The notes beneath the pieces are model-generated. The model searched no databases and had not been told where the DNA came from. It saw nothing but the letters and a program-made list of their open reading frames with translations. Source: Sphingobacteriaceae bacterium (lineage in GTDB: Bacteria; Bacteroidota; Bacteroidia; UBA7662). From it: a stretch of DNA of 64,000 nt. A program made the position numbers and the translations under genes. The stretch spans positions 1 to 64,000 of the forward strand of contig PNNG01000034.1 of NCBI GenBank assembly GCA_013824115.1. Reading direction: 5' to 3'. Numbering within the stretch: position 1 is the stretch's first letter; each line of letters begins with the position of its first letter. Shown here piece by piece: positions 1-12,287 of this stretch.

Positions 1-3000
1 AGTTGGTGTAATTTCTGTTTGATGCACGATTTGGCCTTGGGCATTATAAATTACCAAGGTTGAAGTTTCATGCCAGCCTGTCATCTTAAAGTTTACAAAG
101 TCCTTAGCAGGGTTTGGATAGACCTGCATGCTAGTTGCCTTCAAACCCTTAGATTTGGTTGGTAACGTACCAGCTCTTCTAAATTCACCATCCATTGGAA
201 TGTCACTAGGAAACTCATGGTTTTTATAAAACTTCAAAATGTTTTTGGCTTTTGCAGCAGCAATGTCAACATGAGTTAACGCAAAGTCAAGTAGAATATT
301 TTCATCGATTTCGTTCATCTCGTAATAATTAGAAGCGTAGGAGTTTATGTTTTCGAGGATAGCAGCCAAGTTGAGCATTCGATGGATGGCTGCTTGGTCA
401 TTTTTGTCTTCAAACTGTGATTGAATTGTTTGAATCGCATCGTTTACTCCTTCAAAATCACCGACTAACAGCTTTTCATTTACGTTGGCAAGCTCATATT
501 CAAACCAGTGACCAATTGTTAACCAAGCATTTAACGAATCAACAGTACTTATGGTTGTATCGGCCAAATAATGGCGAACAACTTCGTTGGCAATACTTAC
601 ACAATGCTGTTGAGCAGATGCAATGAGCCTTTCAACACTGGCCCTAGGCGTTGGGTTGTTCCAGCTTTCCATGATAAGTTGAATTTGCATTTCGCTAAAA
701 GGTTGTGGAGCCTCGTATTGCAAATAAACCAAGAAGTCTTCATTAAAGGTTGCTTCTGGATTTGCCAAAATAATTTCAAGTAATATGGCCTGAGGAAGTA
801 CATTACTGGCCGAGAGTTCAATGAGGAAATCTTGAGAGAGATAGGGCGATTGGCTTAACAATTCTTGCCGTGTAATCCAAACCTCGTCGCTCCAAGTGGT
901 TACAACCTGTTGCAATAATTGAGAGCTGTTTCCGCCATCTATGAGCTGACCGTAATTGTATTTAGCAGCAATGAGTTGCTCGAAACCTTGTTGAAAATTG
1001 TTCTTTAAGGCTAACAATTCTGCATTGGATTTTAAAGAACGTACAACACCACCCGCATTGAAGCGACTTGGACAATTGTTTGCAGGCAACATTTGAAGTG
1101 ATACGGTAGATGGTGTGTAATATATTGGCTCCGATAGGCCACCATGATGATAGTACTTCATGCCTTGGGTGGAGCCGTTACGCAAGTCTCCATCTGGTGG
1201 GCTCAATTGTGAAAAAATATTCCCAGCAGAAAGGTTGCCATAGGCTTGAATTTGGTATACCCCATCTTGCTGAATTAAGATGTCACGTCCACAACGCTCA
1301 AAATGGTTGCAACCATACAATAGACCTCTATTATCTTGAACAGCCCAAACCGCTCTCTTAATGTCATAAAACTTATTCCCGTAGAGTTCATTAGCAGCTG
1401 TACCTGTGTGAATGGTCACGATGCCATGGTTTTCAATGCTCAGATTTTCTGCTGAATTGAAGCGGTTATGAATAACTTCAAATCCGGTAGCTTGGCGAAT
1501 GGAAATGCCTGTTTTTGTACCCGAAACAGCGTAAGGTTTGAAAATGAAATCGTTATTAACAATTCGACAAAAATTAACTTGATTGTTAACGATGCTATTA
1601 CGATTACCTTCGAATAATGCATTGAAAACATTGAAAGGGCGGTTGCTGGTGGCGCCTAGGGCCTCGATGGCAGTATTCAGATTTTTGAATTCAGAACGAA
1701 TAGGTGTTGTAGCACAGGGCAGAAAGTTTGAAGGACAATGATCGGAAACCGTGTAAGAGGCATCGATGCTATAAATGGCATGTCCACCTTGGTTTGAAGC
1801 AAATTGACTCGCATTATTCAAAAACCTACATCCTGAAAAACTGATACCTTTTACTTCCCACATGGTTACAAAGGCGCCGAAGGCAGTGGGCCCGTTGATT
1901 TGATTGTTGAGTTCAAAAGTGCAATTCGTAAAGCTGCTAAAGTAGTTCGTTTTGATAGCAGGATTGGAGGGCAAGAAATTTTCGTAAGAAATAAACTCAA
2001 CAGTTCTTCGGTTGTTAATAAATGAAGAATTGCTAGCATAAACAATACCTCCCGAAGTGTTGTAATCGCCTGGTTTCCATAACTGAATGGCGTTATTGGC
2101 ATTTTTGATGCTGCTACCATTTTTAATTTCAAGATAGCCTTGGAAGCGATTACCAGCAGTTGAATATTGGTGTTGGTTGTAGTTACCCCAAACTTCTATG
2201 CCACGCCACAACACATTACAGTCGGTTGAAGTAAATTCAGTACTATCGAGGATTAATCTTGCATTTTGCTCCACAACCACCCTTCCATTTGCCCCAAAAT
2301 TAAATTTCATGTTGCGAAGGGTAATCGTGGTGCCATTAACAATACGTAGCTCATTTACAATTTCAACCACACTACCATTGGTAATAGGATTGCTATTCGG
2401 ACTCCAAGTAGCATTAGAAGTTGCAGTGTAGTTTAAAACGTTGAAGCCTCTCAATGTTTCGCAACAAATTGAATTGGATTGTTGGAAAAGTTGGTCATAA
2501 TTAAACCCATCTATTTGATCAGGTATTACGTAAATCAAAGGTCTTTGTGTCGATCCAGGGGCACTACCACTATTTACCGGATTGAGACCTGCAATTAAGC
2601 CTGTGGCCAAGGTATTGTTGCTAGTATTAACCGCACCCAATGATCCATTCGCATTGAAAGCAAATATAAATTCGGGATTTAAAGGATGAAATTCCAACTC
2701 TAGATGTGAGTTTCCGAAAGCTCCAGAATTTTGAATAAAGTTGATTGCTGAATTATTTAAATTTATAACATAGATACCTTGATTGGTAGACCCTACGTAA
2801 ATGCTGTTTGAATTAGGATGAAACTCTACTCCAGTAAATCGCTGTTCATTACTACCTGGTAAATTGAAGATCTGATGTGAAATTACATTACCACTAGAAT
2901 TTAGATTGAGCACCACCAAATCATGTACTGATGGACGTAAGCTAAAAGGCTTCAAGTTGGCAAATGCGAGTTTTTGGCCATCTGATGAAATTTCTAATTC

Positions 3001-3726
3001 ACAGGTTTGAATAGGTGCTTCAAATGTCCAAATCAACTGAGGCAAGCTAACTCCTGATGCACTAATATCAATTTTGTACACCTCTGTTTGTGGACCAGGA
3101 ATTGCATAATTTTTAGATCCAGCAACAAATAGTTGGAAATTACCCAGTGCATCCGGCTTTTTAACGGTAATGGATGGGAAACCCTCATTTCTAAAATCAA
3201 CGAGAAACTTGTTCGTGATTAAAGGGTTCAGTCCACCTTGACCATTATTCAGTGCCAAATCATATTCGCTATATCTCAATATATGGCCATGAGTAGCTGA
3301 AGTTCCCTGGTTAGAGATAAGAGCTTGGAGGTAAAAAATGTAAAACTTACTGCATTGTGAACCGGGTACCGGTATAATTGCATTTTCATACCCATACTCA
3401 TCGAGTGGGGCAAATTGAATACCAGGCGGAGCAGAGGATACTCCCGGACTTTGATGAAAATTGGCAACAAAATTCCCAAATTTGTTGTAGATATTCCCAT
3501 CTATTACTTGAAAAAGGGGTCTGCCATTATTCCCATGCATACCATGTGCAGCTGAGCGTGCATTCGGTAGATTTGCTGGTAATGTGCTCACTTGTGGGTT
3601 TCCCGTCGTAAGGTCTAAGGCGTTCCCATTAAAGTACCAAAGTTTTAGTCCTGTTTGGCCAAAGGTTGTGCTTACCAAGCAACAGAGAAGTAGCTTGGTG
3701 AAAAAGAAGAAGTATATCTTTTTCAT
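1..3726 (-). CDS. Large secreted beta-helix protein with T9SS C-terminal sorting domain (3' end cut by window)
   Basis: An open frame of 1242 codons runs from an ATG at 3726 down to base 1 without a stop, so the C-terminus lies outside the window. It opens with a signal peptide (MKKIYFFFFTKLLLCCLVSTTFGQ). Roughly residues 100-420 look like a cell-surface beta-propeller or WD-like part, with phrases such as LNPEFIFAFNANG. Residues about 470-850 are rich in N-x-F and N-x-I turns typical of a right-handed beta-helix. The last visible residues contain VYPNPAKDFVNF, the start of a type A sorting domain, so export by the type IX system and anchoring or release at the cell surface is expected. Substrate unknown. 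The ORF track shows only shadows here because the frame is open at the edge. Confidence 0.85.
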   Translation of the reverse strand, partial: MKKIYFFFFTKLLLCCLVSTTFGQTGLKLWYFNGNALDLTTGNPQVSTLPANLPNARSAAHGMHGNNGRPLFQVIDGNIYNKFGNFVANFHQSPGVSSAPPGIQFAPLDEYGYENAIIPVPGSQCSKFYIFYLQALISNQGTSATHGHILRYSEYDLALNNGQGGLNPLITNKFLVDFRNEGFPSITVKKPDALGNFQLFVAGSKNYAIPGPQTEVYKIDISASGVSLPQLIWTFEAPIQTCELEISSDGQKLAFANLKPFSLRPSVHDLVVLNLNSSGNVISHQIFNLPGSNEQRFTGVEFHPNSNSIYVGSTNQGIYVINLNNSAINFIQNSGAFGNSHLELEFHPLNPEFIFAFNANGSLGAVNTSNNTLATGLIAGLNPVNSGSAPGSTQRPLIYVIPDQIDGFNYDQLFQQSNSICCETLRGFNVLNYTATSNATWSPNSNPITNGSVVEIVNELRIVNGTTITLRNMKFNFGANGRVVVEQNARLILDSTEFTSTDCNVLWRGIEVWGNYNQHQYSTAGNRFQGYLEIKNGSSIKNANNAIQLWKPGDYNTSGGIVYASNSSFINNRRTVEFISYENFLPSNPAIKTNYFSSFTNCTFELNNQINGPTAFGAFVTMWEVKGISFSGCRFLNNASQFASNQGGHAIYSIDASYTVSDHCPSNFLPCATTPIRSEFKNLNTAIEALGATSNRPFNVFNALFEGNRNSIVNNQVNFCRIVNNDFIFKPYAVSGTKTGISIRQATGFEVIHNRFNSAENLSIENHGIVTIHTGTAANELYGNKFYDIKRAVWAVQDNRGLLYGCNHFERCGRDILIQQDGVYQIQAYGNLSAGNIFSQLSPPDGDLRNGSTQGMKYYHHGGLSEPIYYTPSTVSLQMLPANNCPSRFNAGGVVRSLKSNAELLALKNNFQQGFEQLIAAKYNYGQLIDGGNSSQLLQQVVTTWSDEVWITRQELLSQSPYLSQDFLIELSASNVLPQAILLEIILANPEATFNEDFLVYLQYEAPQPFSEMQIQLIMESWNNPTPRASVERLIASAQQHCVSIANEVVRHYLADTTISTVDSLNAWLTIGHWFEYELANVNEKLLVGDFEGVNDAIQTIQSQFEDKNDQAAIHRMLNLAAILENINSYASNYYEMNEIDENILLDFALTHVDIAAAKAKNILKFYKNHEFPSDIPMDGEFRRAGTLPTKSKGLKATSMQVYPNPAKDFVNFKMTGWHETSTLVIYNAQGQIVHQTEITPT

Positions 3727-3966: not shown

Positions 3967-4293
3967 ATGACAGCCTGTCTTCCTAAGTTTTACAACTCCC
4001 ACCACGACATTGTGAACGTATCAAACCCCGAAGGCACGCCGCGCATCTACACCATTGTGGGCAATATTTGTGAAACCGACACCTTTGGCTACGACCGCAA
4101 ACTCACCGAAGTGCGTGAGGGCGACATCCTGGCCATTAAAAACGCCGGTGCCTACGGTTTTACCATGAGCAATAACTACAACGCCCGTTTCCGTCCCGCC
4201 GAAGTGCTACTCCTCAACGGCAAGCCGCACCTCATCCGCAAGCGCGAAACGCTGGAGGATATTACGAGGAACCAGGTGATGGTGGAAGTGTAA
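3967..4293 (+). pseudogene. lysA: Orphan C-terminal fragment of diaminopimelate decarboxylase (lysA remnant 1)
   Basis: From about residue 8 the frame reads like the C-terminal barrel of LysA: HHDIVNVSNPEGTPRIYT, then GNICETDTF with the conserved Cys-Glu pair, then GDILAIKNAGAYGFTMSNNY, ending RETLEDITRNQVMVEV. Only about 100 of roughly 400 residues remain. The PLP-binding TIM barrel is absent and the sequence before base 3988 does not continue the homology, so this cannot be an active decarboxylase. The reading frame is intact and well conserved, which suggests a recent origin or a recombination-derived tail. A second, more decayed copy of the same 3' end lies at 5075-5212, beyond the toxin-antitoxin pair. 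No complete lysA is in the window. Confidence 0.8.
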
Positions 4294-4381
4294 GGAAGGG
4301 GTTATAGAATTTTACGATTGAGTGTTAGATGAAGTTGCCAAGTGTAAAAGTGTTCTTGTCATATGGACAACTTTTGGGTGA

Positions 4382-4720
4382 TTACTGATTGCCCAAAAGC
4401 TGTTCTACCTCACGCTGCAATTCAGGCAGTTCTCGGCATACAATCGTCCAAATGACTTCATCAGAGATGTTATCGTAACTGTGAATAATGCGGTTTCGCG
4501 TACCAATGATGTTCTTGGCATTTTTTATCTCCAACCAAGGGGCGTGCTTTACGATTCGGTTAACGGCTTCACCAATGATTTCAAGATTACGCTCAACCGC
4601 CTTTTTGGTTTTTAAGTCTTCTTGGTAGGTAATGAAGTTCCTCTCTTCGCCTATGAATAGAAAAATTTCGTCGATGGCTTGCTGAATATCTAGTAGCCAA
4701 ACTTTGATTTTAATGTCCAT
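4382..4720 (-). CDS. hepT: HepT-like HEPN-domain toxin (DUF86)
   Basis: A 112-residue all-helical protein matching the HEPN/HepT family in length and layout. Near residue 75 it carries GTRNRIIHSYDNI, which fits the RX4HXY ribonuclease motif of HepT toxins. The family cleaves RNA and is neutralised by MntA, which adds AMP to the tyrosine of this motif. The ATG lies inside the end of the upstream mntA gene (11-base overlap), the usual arrangement of this module. The pair sits between two lysA 3' remnants, which suggests it arrived as a cassette. Family and partner are clear from sequence; toxicity is inferred from the family. Confidence 0.88.
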   Translation of the reverse strand: MDIKIKVWLLDIQQAIDEIFLFIGEERNFITYQEDLKTKKAVERNLEIIGEAVNRIVKHAPWLEIKNAKNIIGTRNRIIHSYDNISDEVIWTIVCRELPELQREVEQLLGNQ

Positions 4721-5018
4721 AAATCAGGACTTTGGTTTCATCAAGCTGTTTTCTGAACACCCGGTTCCGAATGGCCCGCTCTTCCAACAAGTCAATAGGC
4801 CTGTTGAATAGGAGCTCTAGCTTATTTTTGAGGTCAAAGTAGAGGTCGGTATATGTAAAGGGATCTTTTTCATCAAAATCAACCACCAAATCAATGTCTG
4901 AAGCCGCATGGAATTCGCCATTAGTCACCGAACCAAAGGCAAACAGCGTTTTCACTTTGCTTGCTTTGCAAAGTTCTTGGATGCGTTTGATTTGAACTGG
5001 CTGCATATTCATATTCAA
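4710..5018 (-). CDS. mntA: MntA-like minimal nucleotidyltransferase antitoxin
   Basis: A 102-residue minimal nucleotidyltransferase. It contains FAFGSVTNGEFHAASDID, a perfect GSX10DXD nucleotide- and metal-binding motif, followed by a further acidic stretch (LVVDFDEKD). In MntA/HepT systems this enzyme AMPylates the HEPN toxin. It is the first gene of the pair and overlaps hepT by 11 bases, implying translational coupling. The start is either the ATG at 5018 or the in-frame ATG four codons later. No promoter with a good TAnnTTTG box was found directly upstream. Confidence 0.87.
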   Translation of the reverse strand: MNMNMQPVQIKRIQELCKASKVKTLFAFGSVTNGEFHAASDIDLVVDFDEKDPFTYTDLYFDLKNKLELLFNRPIDLLEERAIRNRVFRKQLDETKVLIYGH

Positions 5019-5074
5019 AAGTAACTTTTTGGAGCAAGTTTGCCAAATGAGCTATTGTTCTGTTAGCACCATCT

Positions 5075-5212
5075 TATTGCTTCGGCATGTAAACAACCAA
5101 CGCTTGTGCTTCTTATGCTAAAGTTTTGCTGCTCAACGGTCAACCACACCTTTTCCGCGAGCGAGAAACGCTGGAGGATATTATCAGGAACCAGGTGATG
5201 GTGGAATTCTAA
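5075..5212 (+). pseudogene. lysA: Second, decayed lysA 3'-end fragment (remnant 2)
   Basis: Too decayed for the ORF track. Read in frame from 5075 it gives YCFGM, an in-frame stop, a degraded stretch aligning with NNYNARFRPAE, then KVLLLNGQPHLFRERETLED, then IIRNQVMVEF and a stop. This aligns residue for residue with the tail of remnant 1. The last part is almost identical in DNA: GAAACGCTGGAGGATATTA and AGGAACCAGGTGATGGTGGA occur in both copies. Two copies of the same gene end flank the MntA/HepT pair in the same orientation. It is non-coding today. Confidence 0.75.
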
Positions 5213-5215
5213 GTA

Positions 5216-5318: not shown

Positions 5319-5633
5319 TCATAGCGGCACAGCCGATTGCATCACACTTTCGTAGAATGCGGTCACACTGTACTTTTTTGTCCATTCCTTACTGGTATAC
5401 ACCGATGGACTGATGACGGCACCCGTTGCTATTTCGATGTCGTAAAGGGCGTTGGTGATGTTTTTCTCTTGTGCTAATGATAGCTCCTTTTGATCAAGTA
5501 AGATGAGCAAATCCCAATCAGAATCAGGCGTAGATTTGCCCGTAGCCCGCGAACCAAAAAGATATACTTGTGCATTTGGTGCGTGTAGGCTTACGGTTTC
5601 TTTGATTTTCGAAAGGAGGGCTTTTTCAGTCAT
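5319..5633 (-). CDS. Orphan minimal nucleotidyltransferase (MNT) domain protein
   Basis: A 104-residue nucleotidyltransferase-fold protein with VYLFGSRATGKSTPDSDWD, a perfect GSX10DXD motif. It belongs to the same superfamily as MntA at 4710-5018 but the two differ in most positions outside the motif, so this is not a recent duplicate. Such proteins are normally antitoxins of HEPN toxins; no intact HEPN gene follows, and only a 25-residue ORF lies downstream before lysA remnant 2. It may be a solitary antitoxin left after loss of its toxin, or act on an unlinked partner. Confidence 0.8.
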   Translation of the reverse strand: MTEKALLSKIKETVSLHAPNAQVYLFGSRATGKSTPDSDWDLLILLDQKELSLAQEKNITNALYDIEIATGAVISPSVYTSKEWTKKYSVTAFYESVMQSAVPL

Positions 5634-5705: not shown

Positions 5706-6755
5706 CTAAATGAATCTTTGTAATGGCAAATTCAGCCACTCAAGCGCAGCGCCATGCAGCAACCAGTCCTTCTGCTCGGTGCTGAAGGGCATGCTGTGGA
5801 TGAGCTGGCCGGGTTCTAATTCGCCCAAGGGGAAGGGATAATCGGTGCCCAGGGCCACGCGGTTCATACCCACCAAATCGGTGATGTACTGCAGCATGGC
5901 AGGGTCGTGCACCAGCGAATCGAGCCAAAAGCGGCCCAGGTAGTCGCGTGGGTTCACGGGATTGTCGATGGCCACCAAGTCGGGACGCACATTAAAACCG
6001 TGCTCAATGCGGCCAATGGTGGCAGGGAAGGAGCCACCGCCGTGTGCAAAGGCCACCCGCAGTTTGGGCAGGCGTTCGAATACCCCGCCAAAAATCATCG
6101 AGCAAATGGCCAGCGACGATTCAGCTGGCATGCCCACCAGCCAAGGCAGCCAGTAACGCTGCATCTTGTCTTTGCCCATCATGTCCCACGGATGCACAAA
6201 AATGGCAGCGCCCAAACGCTCTGCCGCTTCAAAGAAGGGGAAAAGCTCGGGAGCACTCAAATTCCAGTCGTTGACGTGTGAGCCAATTTCTATCCCTGCG
6301 AAACCAAGCTCCAGCATGCACCTTTCCATCTCCTGAATGGCCAGCTGCGGGTCTTGCAAGGGCACGGTGCCCAGCCCTACGAAGCGCTTCGGATTTTTGG
6401 CCACGGTTTCGGCCAGGTGGTCGTTGAGGTAACGCGAGGTTTCGAGCGCGTCTTCGCCCTTGGCCCAATAGTGAAACAGCACCGGAATGGTCGACAACAC
6501 CTGCACATGCACCCCGTGCTGGTCGCACTCGTTCAAACGGACATCGGCCTCCCAGCAGTTTTCTTCCACCTTGCGGAAGAATTTATCGCCTTGCATCATG
6601 CTGGCGCAGCGAGGACAGCTGTCGGCATGGTGCTCCAGGTGAATAAAAGTGCCATACCCGAACTTCTCGGCCCAGCGGGGCAAATGTTCGGGCATGATGT
6701 GGGTGTGGATGTCGATGGTGAGCTTGGAGCTGCCGTAGGGCTGCAAAAAGGACAT
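5706..6755 (-). CDS. nbaD: 2-amino-3-carboxymuconate-6-semialdehyde decarboxylase (amidohydrolase family)
   Basis: A 349-residue metal-dependent amidohydrolase. It has the N-terminal zinc pair in DIHTHIMPEH, a His in FVHPWDMMGKDKMQRYW, a His in VAFAHGGGSFPATIGR and the catalytic Asp in ALGTDYPFPLGE. The MMGKDKMQRYWLPWLVGMP region is typical of ACMSD. The enzyme decarboxylates the unstable product of 3-hydroxyanthranilate oxidation and so steers it to degradation rather than to quinolinate and NAD. The start is set at the ATG at 6755, because the longer track ORF runs back into the preceding gene and adds 22 residues unlike the family. It lies 17 bases behind the dioxygenase gene that makes its substrate. 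Confidence 0.88.
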   Translation of the reverse strand: MSFLQPYGSSKLTIDIHTHIMPEHLPRWAEKFGYGTFIHLEHHADSCPRCASMMQGDKFFRKVEENCWEADVRLNECDQHGVHVQVLSTIPVLFHYWAKGEDALETSRYLNDHLAETVAKNPKRFVGLGTVPLQDPQLAIQEMERCMLELGFAGIEIGSHVNDWNLSAPELFPFFEAAERLGAAIFVHPWDMMGKDKMQRYWLPWLVGMPAESSLAICSMIFGGVFERLPKLRVAFAHGGGSFPATIGRIEHGFNVRPDLVAIDNPVNPRDYLGRFWLDSLVHDPAMLQYITDLVGMNRVALGTDYPFPLGELEPGQLIHSMPFSTEQKDWLLHGAALEWLNLPLQRFI

Positions 6756-6772
6756 GCGGTAAGGTTCAGAAA

Positions 6773-7303
6773 TTAAACGAATCGGGGATCGGTCTCCATC
6801 ACATGCCCGCAGCTTTTGCAAGTGCGCAAATCTTCACTGCCGTAAAAATGGCGGAAGCGGGGCAGGAAGTCGGTTTCGATGTTGCTGAGCTCAAAATAGG
6901 TCTCGTGCAGCTTGTGGTTGCACTTTTCGCAAAACCACAACAAGCCATCGTTGTAACCTTTGCCCAAGCGCACCCGCTCAATCACCAAGCCAATAGAACC
7001 GGCCGAGCGAATGGGCGAGTGGGGGGTTTTGGGTGGACACAAAAACATATCGCCGGGACCCAGTGGTATGTCAACCGGCTTGCCTTCGTCCTGAATGCGC
7101 ACTGTGATTTCGCCTTCCAACTGGTAGAAAAGCTCTTCGGTTTCGTTGTAGTGGTAGTCTTTGCGGGCATTCGGACCGCCCACAATCATCACAATGTAGT
7201 CGGTACCTTCGGGATACAAATTCTTATTATTCACCGGCGGCTTGAGTAGGTGCCGGTTTTCATCGATCCATTTTTGCAGGTTGAAGGGTGCGCGTATGGC
7301 CAT
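6773..7303 (-). CDS. nbaC: 3-hydroxyanthranilate 3,4-dioxygenase
   Basis: A 176-residue cupin. Iron ligands are visible in KDYHYNETEELFYQLEGE (His and Glu) and PPKTPHSPIRS (His). The C-terminus carries a rubredoxin-like metal site of two pairs, CEKC and CKSC, as in bacterial homodimeric enzymes of this family. It opens the ring of 3-hydroxyanthranilate to 2-amino-3-carboxymuconate semialdehyde, the substrate of the next gene's product. The two genes form a two-step unit. Other kynurenine-pathway genes (kynureninase, kynurenine monooxygenase, tryptophan dioxygenase) are not in the window. Confidence 0.93.
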   Translation of the reverse strand: MAIRAPFNLQKWIDENRHLLKPPVNNKNLYPEGTDYIVMIVGGPNARKDYHYNETEELFYQLEGEITVRIQDEGKPVDIPLGPGDMFLCPPKTPHSPIRSAGSIGLVIERVRLGKGYNDGLLWFCEKCNHKLHETYFELSNIETDFLPRFRHFYGSEDLRTCKSCGHVMETDPRFV

Positions 7304-10980: not shown

Positions 10981-11808
10981 ATGCGCATCTTTCTTTTCCA
11001 CCTGTTTTTAATTGGTTGCCTGGCAAAAGCCGAGGCGCGCCCATTTGAAATAACCACCTACGGACAACAAGGCAGTGCCATTGTCCTGCTCCCAGGCTAT
11101 GCTTCTTCGCCCGAAGTTTGGCAAACTACCATCGAGCGCCTGCAAGCCAACTACCGCTTGTATGTGCTGCATTTTGCCGGCTTTGCGGGTAAAGCTCCAG
11201 CTGACCAGCCGGCTTTCGAACCTTGGGCAAATGCGGTAACCGAATGGCTACGGTTGATGCCCGATAGCCAAGTGACCATCATCGGCCACAGCATGGGTGG
11301 GGTGATGGCCCTGTGGTTGGCCGCTGAGTTGTCCCATAAGGTGGCCAAAGTGGTGGTAGTCGACGCTTTGCCCTGTTTGAGCGCGCTCAATAATCCATCC
11401 TTCAAAGTCGATCCCCATTTTTCATGCGAAGCCAGCATCCGGCAAATGACAGCACTCAGCGATTCTGCCTTTAAGGCCATGCAACAACAAGGTGCGCCTT
11501 GGTTGGTGAACGATGTGGCTTGGCAGCAAAAATTGGTCGATTGGAGCATGCAAAGCGATAGACATACCCTGGCGGCGGTGTATTGCAGTTTCCTGCAGAC
11601 GGATATGCGTCCGAAATTGTCGCAAATCAAAGCCCGGGTGCTGGTTCAGCTTGAAGCACCCTTCACCGGATACCAGAGTGCCATCGCCGCTCAATACGAA
11701 ACGTTGAAAGGGGCAGAGCTGGTATATGCTCCCAAAGGACTCCATTTTGTGATGATCGATGCAGCCGATTGGTATTTCGAAAGCCTAATCGCATTTTTGA
11801 AAGCATGA
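10981..11808 (+). CDS. Exported alpha/beta hydrolase
   Basis: A 275-residue alpha/beta hydrolase with an N-terminal signal peptide (MRIFLFHLFLIGCLAKAEA). The oxyanion region is VLLPGYASSPEVW, the nucleophile elbow is IIGHSMGG, and the terminal KGLHFVMID supplies the catalytic His. The substrate cannot be predicted; the family includes esterases and lactonases. Its stop codon overlaps the start of the ECF sigma gene (ATGA), so it is translated together with that regulator and is likely part of its regulon or signal path. Confidence 0.8.
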   Translation: MRIFLFHLFLIGCLAKAEARPFEITTYGQQGSAIVLLPGYASSPEVWQTTIERLQANYRLYVLHFAGFAGKAPADQPAFEPWANAVTEWLRLMPDSQVTIIGHSMGGVMALWLAAELSHKVAKVVVVDALPCLSALNNPSFKVDPHFSCEASIRQMTALSDSAFKAMQQQGAPWLVNDVAWQQKLVDWSMQSDRHTLAAVYCSFLQTDMRPKLSQIKARVLVQLEAPFTGYQSAIAAQYETLKGAELVYAPKGLHFVMIDAADWYFESLIAFLKA

Positions 11809-12287
11809 GTTCGTTCCAGCAATTGTATGAAGCCTATTGGCCGCGCATTTATCGAGTTTGCTTGGCGTATGTTGGCGATCGGGAATGGGCCAAGGATGTA
11901 TGTCAAGAGTGCTTCGAAATCGCCTGGCGCCAACGCGAGCAATTCCGAGACGAGGCGCTAATGAGCAGCTGGATTTTCCGGATTGCTGTCAACCTCTGCC
12001 TCCGACAGCTCAAGCGAGAGGAGAAGAGGGCAGGTTGGGAGGCCGAGCACCACGAACGCCAACAAATGCAGCGTGAAAGGCGCACGGAGCTCGAACTACG
12101 GTTATTCGATGCTATTGGCCAACTTCCCGAACTCGATCGTCTGCTAATTTCATTACACCTCGAGCAAATCCCACAGCAACAAATGGGTGAAATGCTCAAC
12201 CTTAGCCACGCAAACGTGCGTGTTCGCATTCACCGCATCAAAGAACAATTACAAAAGTTATTGGAGGAGCCTTCCCATGGAGCATAA
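11805..12287 (+). CDS. ECF-subfamily RNA polymerase sigma factor
   Basis: 160 residues with the two ECF sigma regions. Region 2 is FQQLYEAYWPRIYRVCLAYV followed by AKDVCQECFEIAWRQREQF, and region 4 is LPELDRLLISLHLEQI then MGEMLNLSHANVRVRIHRIK. The start chosen is the ATG at 11805, which overlaps the hydrolase stop as ATGA; the longer track ORF adds 12 residues unlike the family. The downstream membrane-protein gene begins within its last codons, the usual position of an anti-sigma factor. It probably directs a small envelope-related regulon. Confidence 0.9.
   Translation: MSSFQQLYEAYWPRIYRVCLAYVGDREWAKDVCQECFEIAWRQREQFRDEALMSSWIFRIAVNLCLRQLKREEKRAGWEAEHHERQQMQRERRTELELRLFDAIGQLPELDRLLISLHLEQIPQQQMGEMLNLSHANVRVRIHRIKEQLQKLLEEPSHGA

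Follow-up and report, generated by a model that had tools for sequence, protein, structure and literature searches.

How does a toxin-antitoxin (TA) pair come to lie in a chromosome between two partial copies of one and the same gene? The movement of solitary chromosomal TA and defence genes with no obvious vehicle is an open question, and it is raised by a locus in the window (the whole stretch of 64,000 nucleotides analysed here, from genome G000, a metagenome-assembled genome of an uncultured Bacteroidota genus). In our reading, the chromosome gained a HepT/MntA pair at the 3′ end of lysA through insertion with long target duplication, and the locus is one instance of a gene-gain mode that is common in the genus (probability roughly 0.7 for both statements).

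Two lysA ends around a HepT/MntA pair

The features of the locus were as follows (window coordinates).

1–3726, minus strand: large type IX-secretion-sorted protein gene (PF18962), upstream of t1 and cut by the contig start
3979–4293, plus strand: lysA 3′ end copy t1, ~103 codons, 5′-truncated, open to the native stop
4202–4294, plus strand: 93-bp direct repeat within t1 (copy A), with 83% identity to 5121–5213
4382–4720, minus strand: HepT-like HEPN ribonuclease toxin gene (PF01934, 73.7 bits)
4710–5018, minus strand: MntA-like minimal nucleotidyltransferase antitoxin gene (PF18765, 54 bits; PF01909, 50.1 bits)
5121–5213, plus strand: lysA 3′ end copy t2, the solitary tail and direct repeat copy B
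5319–5633, minus strand: second MNT-type nucleotidyltransferase gene (PF18765, 42.4 bits), just outside t2

The plus-strand order was t1, the minus-strand HepT/MntA-type pair and t2. A first-pass annotation of this DNA had described two C-terminal pieces of lysA in the same orientation with a TA pair between them, and coordinates, strands and profiles bore this out. Homology of t1 to lysA ran from about 3979 up to the stop at 4291–4293 and matched positions 317–416 of the lysA profile TIGR01048 (E 5.6e-33) in an open frame, in agreement with the intact frame of about 105 codons reported for it. The DNA of t1 was 91.6% identical over 308 bp to the intact lysA of G001, a sister genome. The second piece had been given as about 45 codons with a stop; its 93 bp were firm (83% identity to t1, E 2.8e-20), and the stop-bearing part, a weak tblastn extension to about 5063–5075 with one TAA inside, was marginal, as 12 of 500 shuffles reached an equal score for the homology upstream of 5121. 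The near-identical DNA claimed by the stop codon was found in the last ~45 bp, the full repeat being only 83% identical. A 42-base near-identical string occurred twice in the 64 kb, once at each end, with 0 occurrences expected in shuffles.

No complete lysA was found in the G000 assembly, as had been said of the window; this absence is weak evidence because the completeness of the assembly is 85% and contig C2 begins at window base 1. Following the folE/queD flank on contig C25 towards a full gene led into unrelated DNA. Elsewhere in the family, lysA was absent from G002 (96% complete) and from most other genomes, and lysine synthesis may have been lost repeatedly.

The HepT motif RNRIIHSY (RX4HXY) and the MntA motif GSX10DXD were intact as read from the translations, and mntA, with a likely ATG start at 5012, overlapped the start of hepT. 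Both proteins passed Pfam cut-offs and missed the 60-bit cut-offs of the NCBIfam equivalogs (HepT, NF047751, 42.3 bits; MntA, NF047752, 46.3 bits). MntA also matched PADLOC PDC-S09 (88.5 bits) and PDB 1wot (E 4.4e-5). The pair resembled type VII HepT/MntA systems in having a HEPN RNase with RX4HXY and an overlapping MNT-type nucleotidyltransferase with GSX10DXD, but differed in falling below the equivalog cut-offs and in placing the antitoxin gene first; RNase toxicity and polyadenylylation of the toxin by the antitoxin are further traits of that class. Addiction and/or phage defence would be expected to keep such a pair in the genome.

A second HepT/MntA pair, with a HepT 85% identical, was located at a contig end of G000 (C21:46727–47398). 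It matched window positions 4419–5048 only and had no lysA tail beside it, and HepT/MntA paralogues were rejected as carriers of the tail. The nucleotidyltransferase gene at 5319–5633 had no HEPN partner; its G001 homologue (60% amino acid identity) had a HEPN-type partner downstream (L032:1800–2402, within L032:1800–2527).

Ancestry of the two lysA ends

The sister genome G001 is a MAG of the same genus (GenBank contig JAUXNJ010000042.1). It carried, in this order, an intact lysA, a gene for a secreted protein, a fragment corresponding to the C-terminus of the large secreted-protein gene at window 1–3726, and a 48-bp lysA tail, followed by hydrolase and sigma-factor genes that were found at window 10981–12287. 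This order indicated that a lysA tail closes the far end of inserted DNA in G001 too. Amidohydrolase and 3-hydroxyanthranilate dioxygenase genes (kynurenine-type catabolism) at window 5706–7303 sit between t2 and the hydrolase gene that directly succeeds the tail in G001.

Third-position divergence between G000 and G001 was 44.5% in the core (1070/2402; nine orthologues), versus 21% between t1 and the G001 lysA (22/103, p=2e-6). The C-terminus of the large secreted protein diverged by 21% as well (18/86), and its gene was 84% identical over 300 bp to G001 L031:17200–17497 in blastn. Because of the low divergence of t1 against the core, t1, and with it the large secreted-protein gene, was probably imported from a lineage like that of G001, the block probably having been exchanged between the lineages after their split.

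Comparison of t2 with the G001 lysA gave differences at 9/30 third positions (30%) and at 6/12 fourfold sites. By codon position its changes numbered 6/1/9, with only 1 of 16 at second positions, and this avoidance makes it a poor fit to a fresh duplicate that simply decays neutrally. Over ~30 codons, the changes are suggestive of a native lysA that was once functional. Judged from these substitutions, t2 may be a remnant of the native gene, and instead of a plain duplication the two ends may represent an import (t1) and the native gene (t2). The first-pass annotation had offered capture by exchange between lysA copies as an alternative to its attachment-site model, and for the window locus that alternative comes closer, because t1 and t2 appear to be of different ancestry.

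The locus also fits the simple design of full gene, cargo and tail incompletely, since copy A is itself truncated, and this counts against insertion with target duplication here. Import by homologous recombination between relatives, with no special insertion process at lysA, would have a foreign lysA end, secreted-protein gene and TA pair replace the native lysA and leave ~93 bp of it as t2. The ~21% divergence of t1 and its neighbour and the native-like, coding-type changes of t2 speak for it, but the t2 comparison is based on about 30 codons, and nadB, aroC, tRNA-Arg and the other loci described below, where the two copies differ far less from one another than from the sister species, would be left unexplained. 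We consider import alone unlikely, though it is the strongest of the competing accounts. A clean empty site at lysA itself was given by none of the relatives.

Recurrence of inserts that duplicate gene ends

Unique direct repeats (40–450 bp, at least 80% identity, 0.4–8 kb apart) were scanned for in G000 and G001. Inserts of the same design, with an intact gene end, cargo and a solitary copy of the end, numbered 14 in 1.64 Mb, with duplicated lengths of 48–271 bp. Part of this DNA had been picked for lysA or HepT matches; the unselected 800 kb still held 5 inserts. Dispersed repeat families of G001 with many repeat pairs (C9:36163, 37277 and 3601) were excluded by copy number, and two more unique repeats were left out as unclassified (G000 C3:1/1737, at a contig start; G001 C21:16718/18419, 46 bp). 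Target, duplicated length and cargo were as follows.

G000 lysA (window), 93 bp: HepT/MntA
G000 photolyase tail (contig C25), 56 bp: PIN-domain VapC-type gene and small upstream gene
G000 nadB tail (C3), 92 bp: small gene and PIN-like toxin gene with an in-frame stop
G000 infB tail plus terminator (C3), 87 bp: RhuM gene
G000 SDR gene tail (C1), 271 bp: 280-aa gene
G001 lysA, 48 bp: secreted proteins
G001 aroC, 162 bp: secreted proteins
G001 170-aa gene, 89 bp: three-gene ABC-transporter-like set
G001 esterase head (5′ end), 141 bp: lipoprotein-like genes
G001 tRNA-Arg(CCT) (C33:1201–3346), 117 bp, 100% identical: DUF4143 ATPase gene
G001 gene tail, 87 bp: split AbiD gene
G001 three intergenic repeats: two AAA ATPases and a HepT/MntA remnant

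The cargo consisted mostly of TA, Abi and defence candidates (Pfam PIN, RhuM, DUF4143, Abi_2 and DUF234; PADLOC PDC-S09, PDC-S05, PDC-S01, PDC-S27 and AbiD), together with ATPases, secreted proteins and the ABC-transporter-like set. Eleven of the 14 inserts were at gene ends, and 10 of these 11 at 3′ ends (p=0.012). The same scan found no such insert in 1.52 Mb of other Bacteroidota, comprising 717 kb at 40 other lysA loci, 200 kb each of G005 and of G002 (same genus), and 400 kb from four further genomes.

Some further observations were made at these loci. The tRNA-Arg(CCT) repeat consists of the 3′ half of the gene plus downstream DNA, and that insertion is apparently recent. The infB-pnuC gap holds RhuM in G000 and a RelE-like TA pair in G001 (C21:105700–106560; L222:5697–6560), the same slot being occupied by different addiction cargo in the two genomes. 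In G001, a lone AAA ATPase gene is flanked by direct repeats of 57 bp that are partly palindromic (C41:206213–207498); these lie off any gene end, and this may be another kind of element.

Since both genomes are MAGs and the HepT/MntA paralogue lies at a contig end, an assembly artefact of the metagenome bins was considered. The copies were only 83–97% alike in most cases, not as assembler duplicates would be, and the pattern was present in two independent MAGs, at 14 loci versus 0 in the controls; such an artefact is scarcely credible.

The direction of the events could be read at nadB, where G001 provided a clean empty site: both the cargo and the second copy were missing, and the sequence that follows nadB in G001 was collinear with the G000 DNA beyond the solitary nadB copy. 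At the four loci with an outgroup (aroC, the 170-aa gene, the esterase and nadB), 18 of 21 changes fell in the solitary copy and 3 in the gene-borne copy (p=0.0015), indicating that the solitary copy starts as a nearly identical, redundant duplicate and then decays. Tandem duplication of a gene plus its neighbours, after which the second gene copy lost its 5′ part, would likewise leave direct repeats of gene ends. But the cargo is on one side only, its families are present elsewhere in the genomes, and at nadB the sister simply lacks cargo and copy, so that we regard this origin as very improbable.

The 3′ end of lysA had been proposed at first pass to be the attachment site of a TA cassette. 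Part of this proposal holds, in that the insertion is at the lysA 3′ end, with a gene end at each junction, and other TA pairs of this genome are framed in the same way at other genes. The idea of a dedicated lysA site does not, as aroC, nadB, infB, photolyase and tRNA-Arg genes, among others, are targets too. Among 41 lysA loci a second tail was present in the sister G001 only, and lysA as a general attachment site was rejected. Carriage of the tail by phages was rejected as well (the pattern occurred in 0 of 2.9 million viral contigs), and a search for plasmid relatives of the region gave one weak 7% match and nothing useful.

A more specific form of the proposal has the lysA 3′ end serving as att site for a tyrosine recombinase acting in trans, the TA pair being a recombinase-free satellite cassette. 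SCC elements at rlmH, and other integrases, regenerate the 3′ end of a gene and leave the displaced tail on the far side. The inserts described here are alike in the regenerated 3′ end and in the displaced tail beyond the cargo. Insertions moreover end near the lysA stop codon in both genomes, successively (t1, t2 and the G001 tail), and the 3′-end excess is in the same direction. However, the targets are many unrelated genes, the duplicated length varies over the whole range given above, no recombinase or integrase was present among the window neighbours or the scanned cargo proteins, no common core was seen by eye in the table of junctions, and none of the 40 other lysA loci had a second tail. 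A recombinase acting in trans at lysA is therefore improbable.

Route of insertion and relation to known systems

On the favoured reading, DNA that enters the cell without bringing a recombinase would be joined to the chromosome within the end of one of its genes. The 48–271 bp of gene end would then be present twice, one copy completing the intact gene and the other standing alone, 5′-truncated, on the far side of the cargo. Survivors would be mainly 3′-end duplications, in which the gene keeps its promoter and full coding sequence; the observed 3′-end bias would follow from selection to keep the gene intact and under its own promoter.

Ku-dependent end joining was rejected, the Ku gene being absent from G000, G001, G002 and G005. 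With no recombinase among the scanned cargo proteins, no core evident by eye, variable length and no Ku, what is left is insertion with long target duplication or homology-facilitated illegitimate recombination. In the latter, one-sided homologous pairing in the gene would be followed by illegitimate closing of the other end, as in natural transformation. We infer this to be the most likely route, ahead of a site-specific integrase and of end joining through Ku, and on the lysA evidence we favour it with moderate confidence. Insertion with long target duplication is a possible route too, because target duplication accounts for the near-identity of the copies at birth at the other loci at least as well as the import of a foreign allele does.

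Insertion with long target duplication has been described for restriction-modification systems of Helicobacter pylori (Nobusato et al. 2000; reviewed in PMC3874152, PMC1643837, PMC3031569), as an uncharacterised route with duplications of variable length, of the order of 100 bp. The inserts described here resemble those cases in that self-contained addiction or defence genes lie between long, variable-length direct repeats of host sequence, recognised against an empty site in a relative (here nadB in G001). They differ in cargo, which is mostly TA, RhuM, AbiD, AAA ATPases and secreted proteins instead of restriction-modification genes, the latter being a trait of the published cases and not part of the mechanism. 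They differ also in targets, nearly always gene 3′ ends, in their uncultured Bacteroidota host and in their high density.

Homology-facilitated illegitimate recombination has been proposed for the effector-immunity arrays of the Vibrio cholerae type VI secretion system (T6SS) (PMC5361080). Old remnants downstream and serial additions at one place are shared features; one homologous anchor and illegitimate closing, in a naturally competent host, would be shared on the favoured route, which the mixed ancestry of t1 and t2 fits. In Vibrio the anchor is the T6SS cluster and the remnants are whole immunity genes, whereas here the remnants are gene ends of 48–271 bp at many loci.

The two sister genomes repeatedly gain small gene sets, often of TA or phage-defence genes, by insertions that leave a neighbouring gene's end in two copies. 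This kind of insertion, previously known mainly from restriction-modification genes of Helicobacter, is found here with TA and defence-type cargo. With ~14 readable inserts in 1.64 Mb and none in the sampled relatives, the pattern lends itself to counting, to dating from the decay of the solitary copies and to testing. More tentatively, a recombinase-free process may operate in this genus, and seldom or never in its relatives, that repeatedly places small TA and defence genes at gene 3′ ends. If so, that process, duplicating 50–270 bp of target, would explain how solitary TA and defence genes enter chromosomes without a mobile element.
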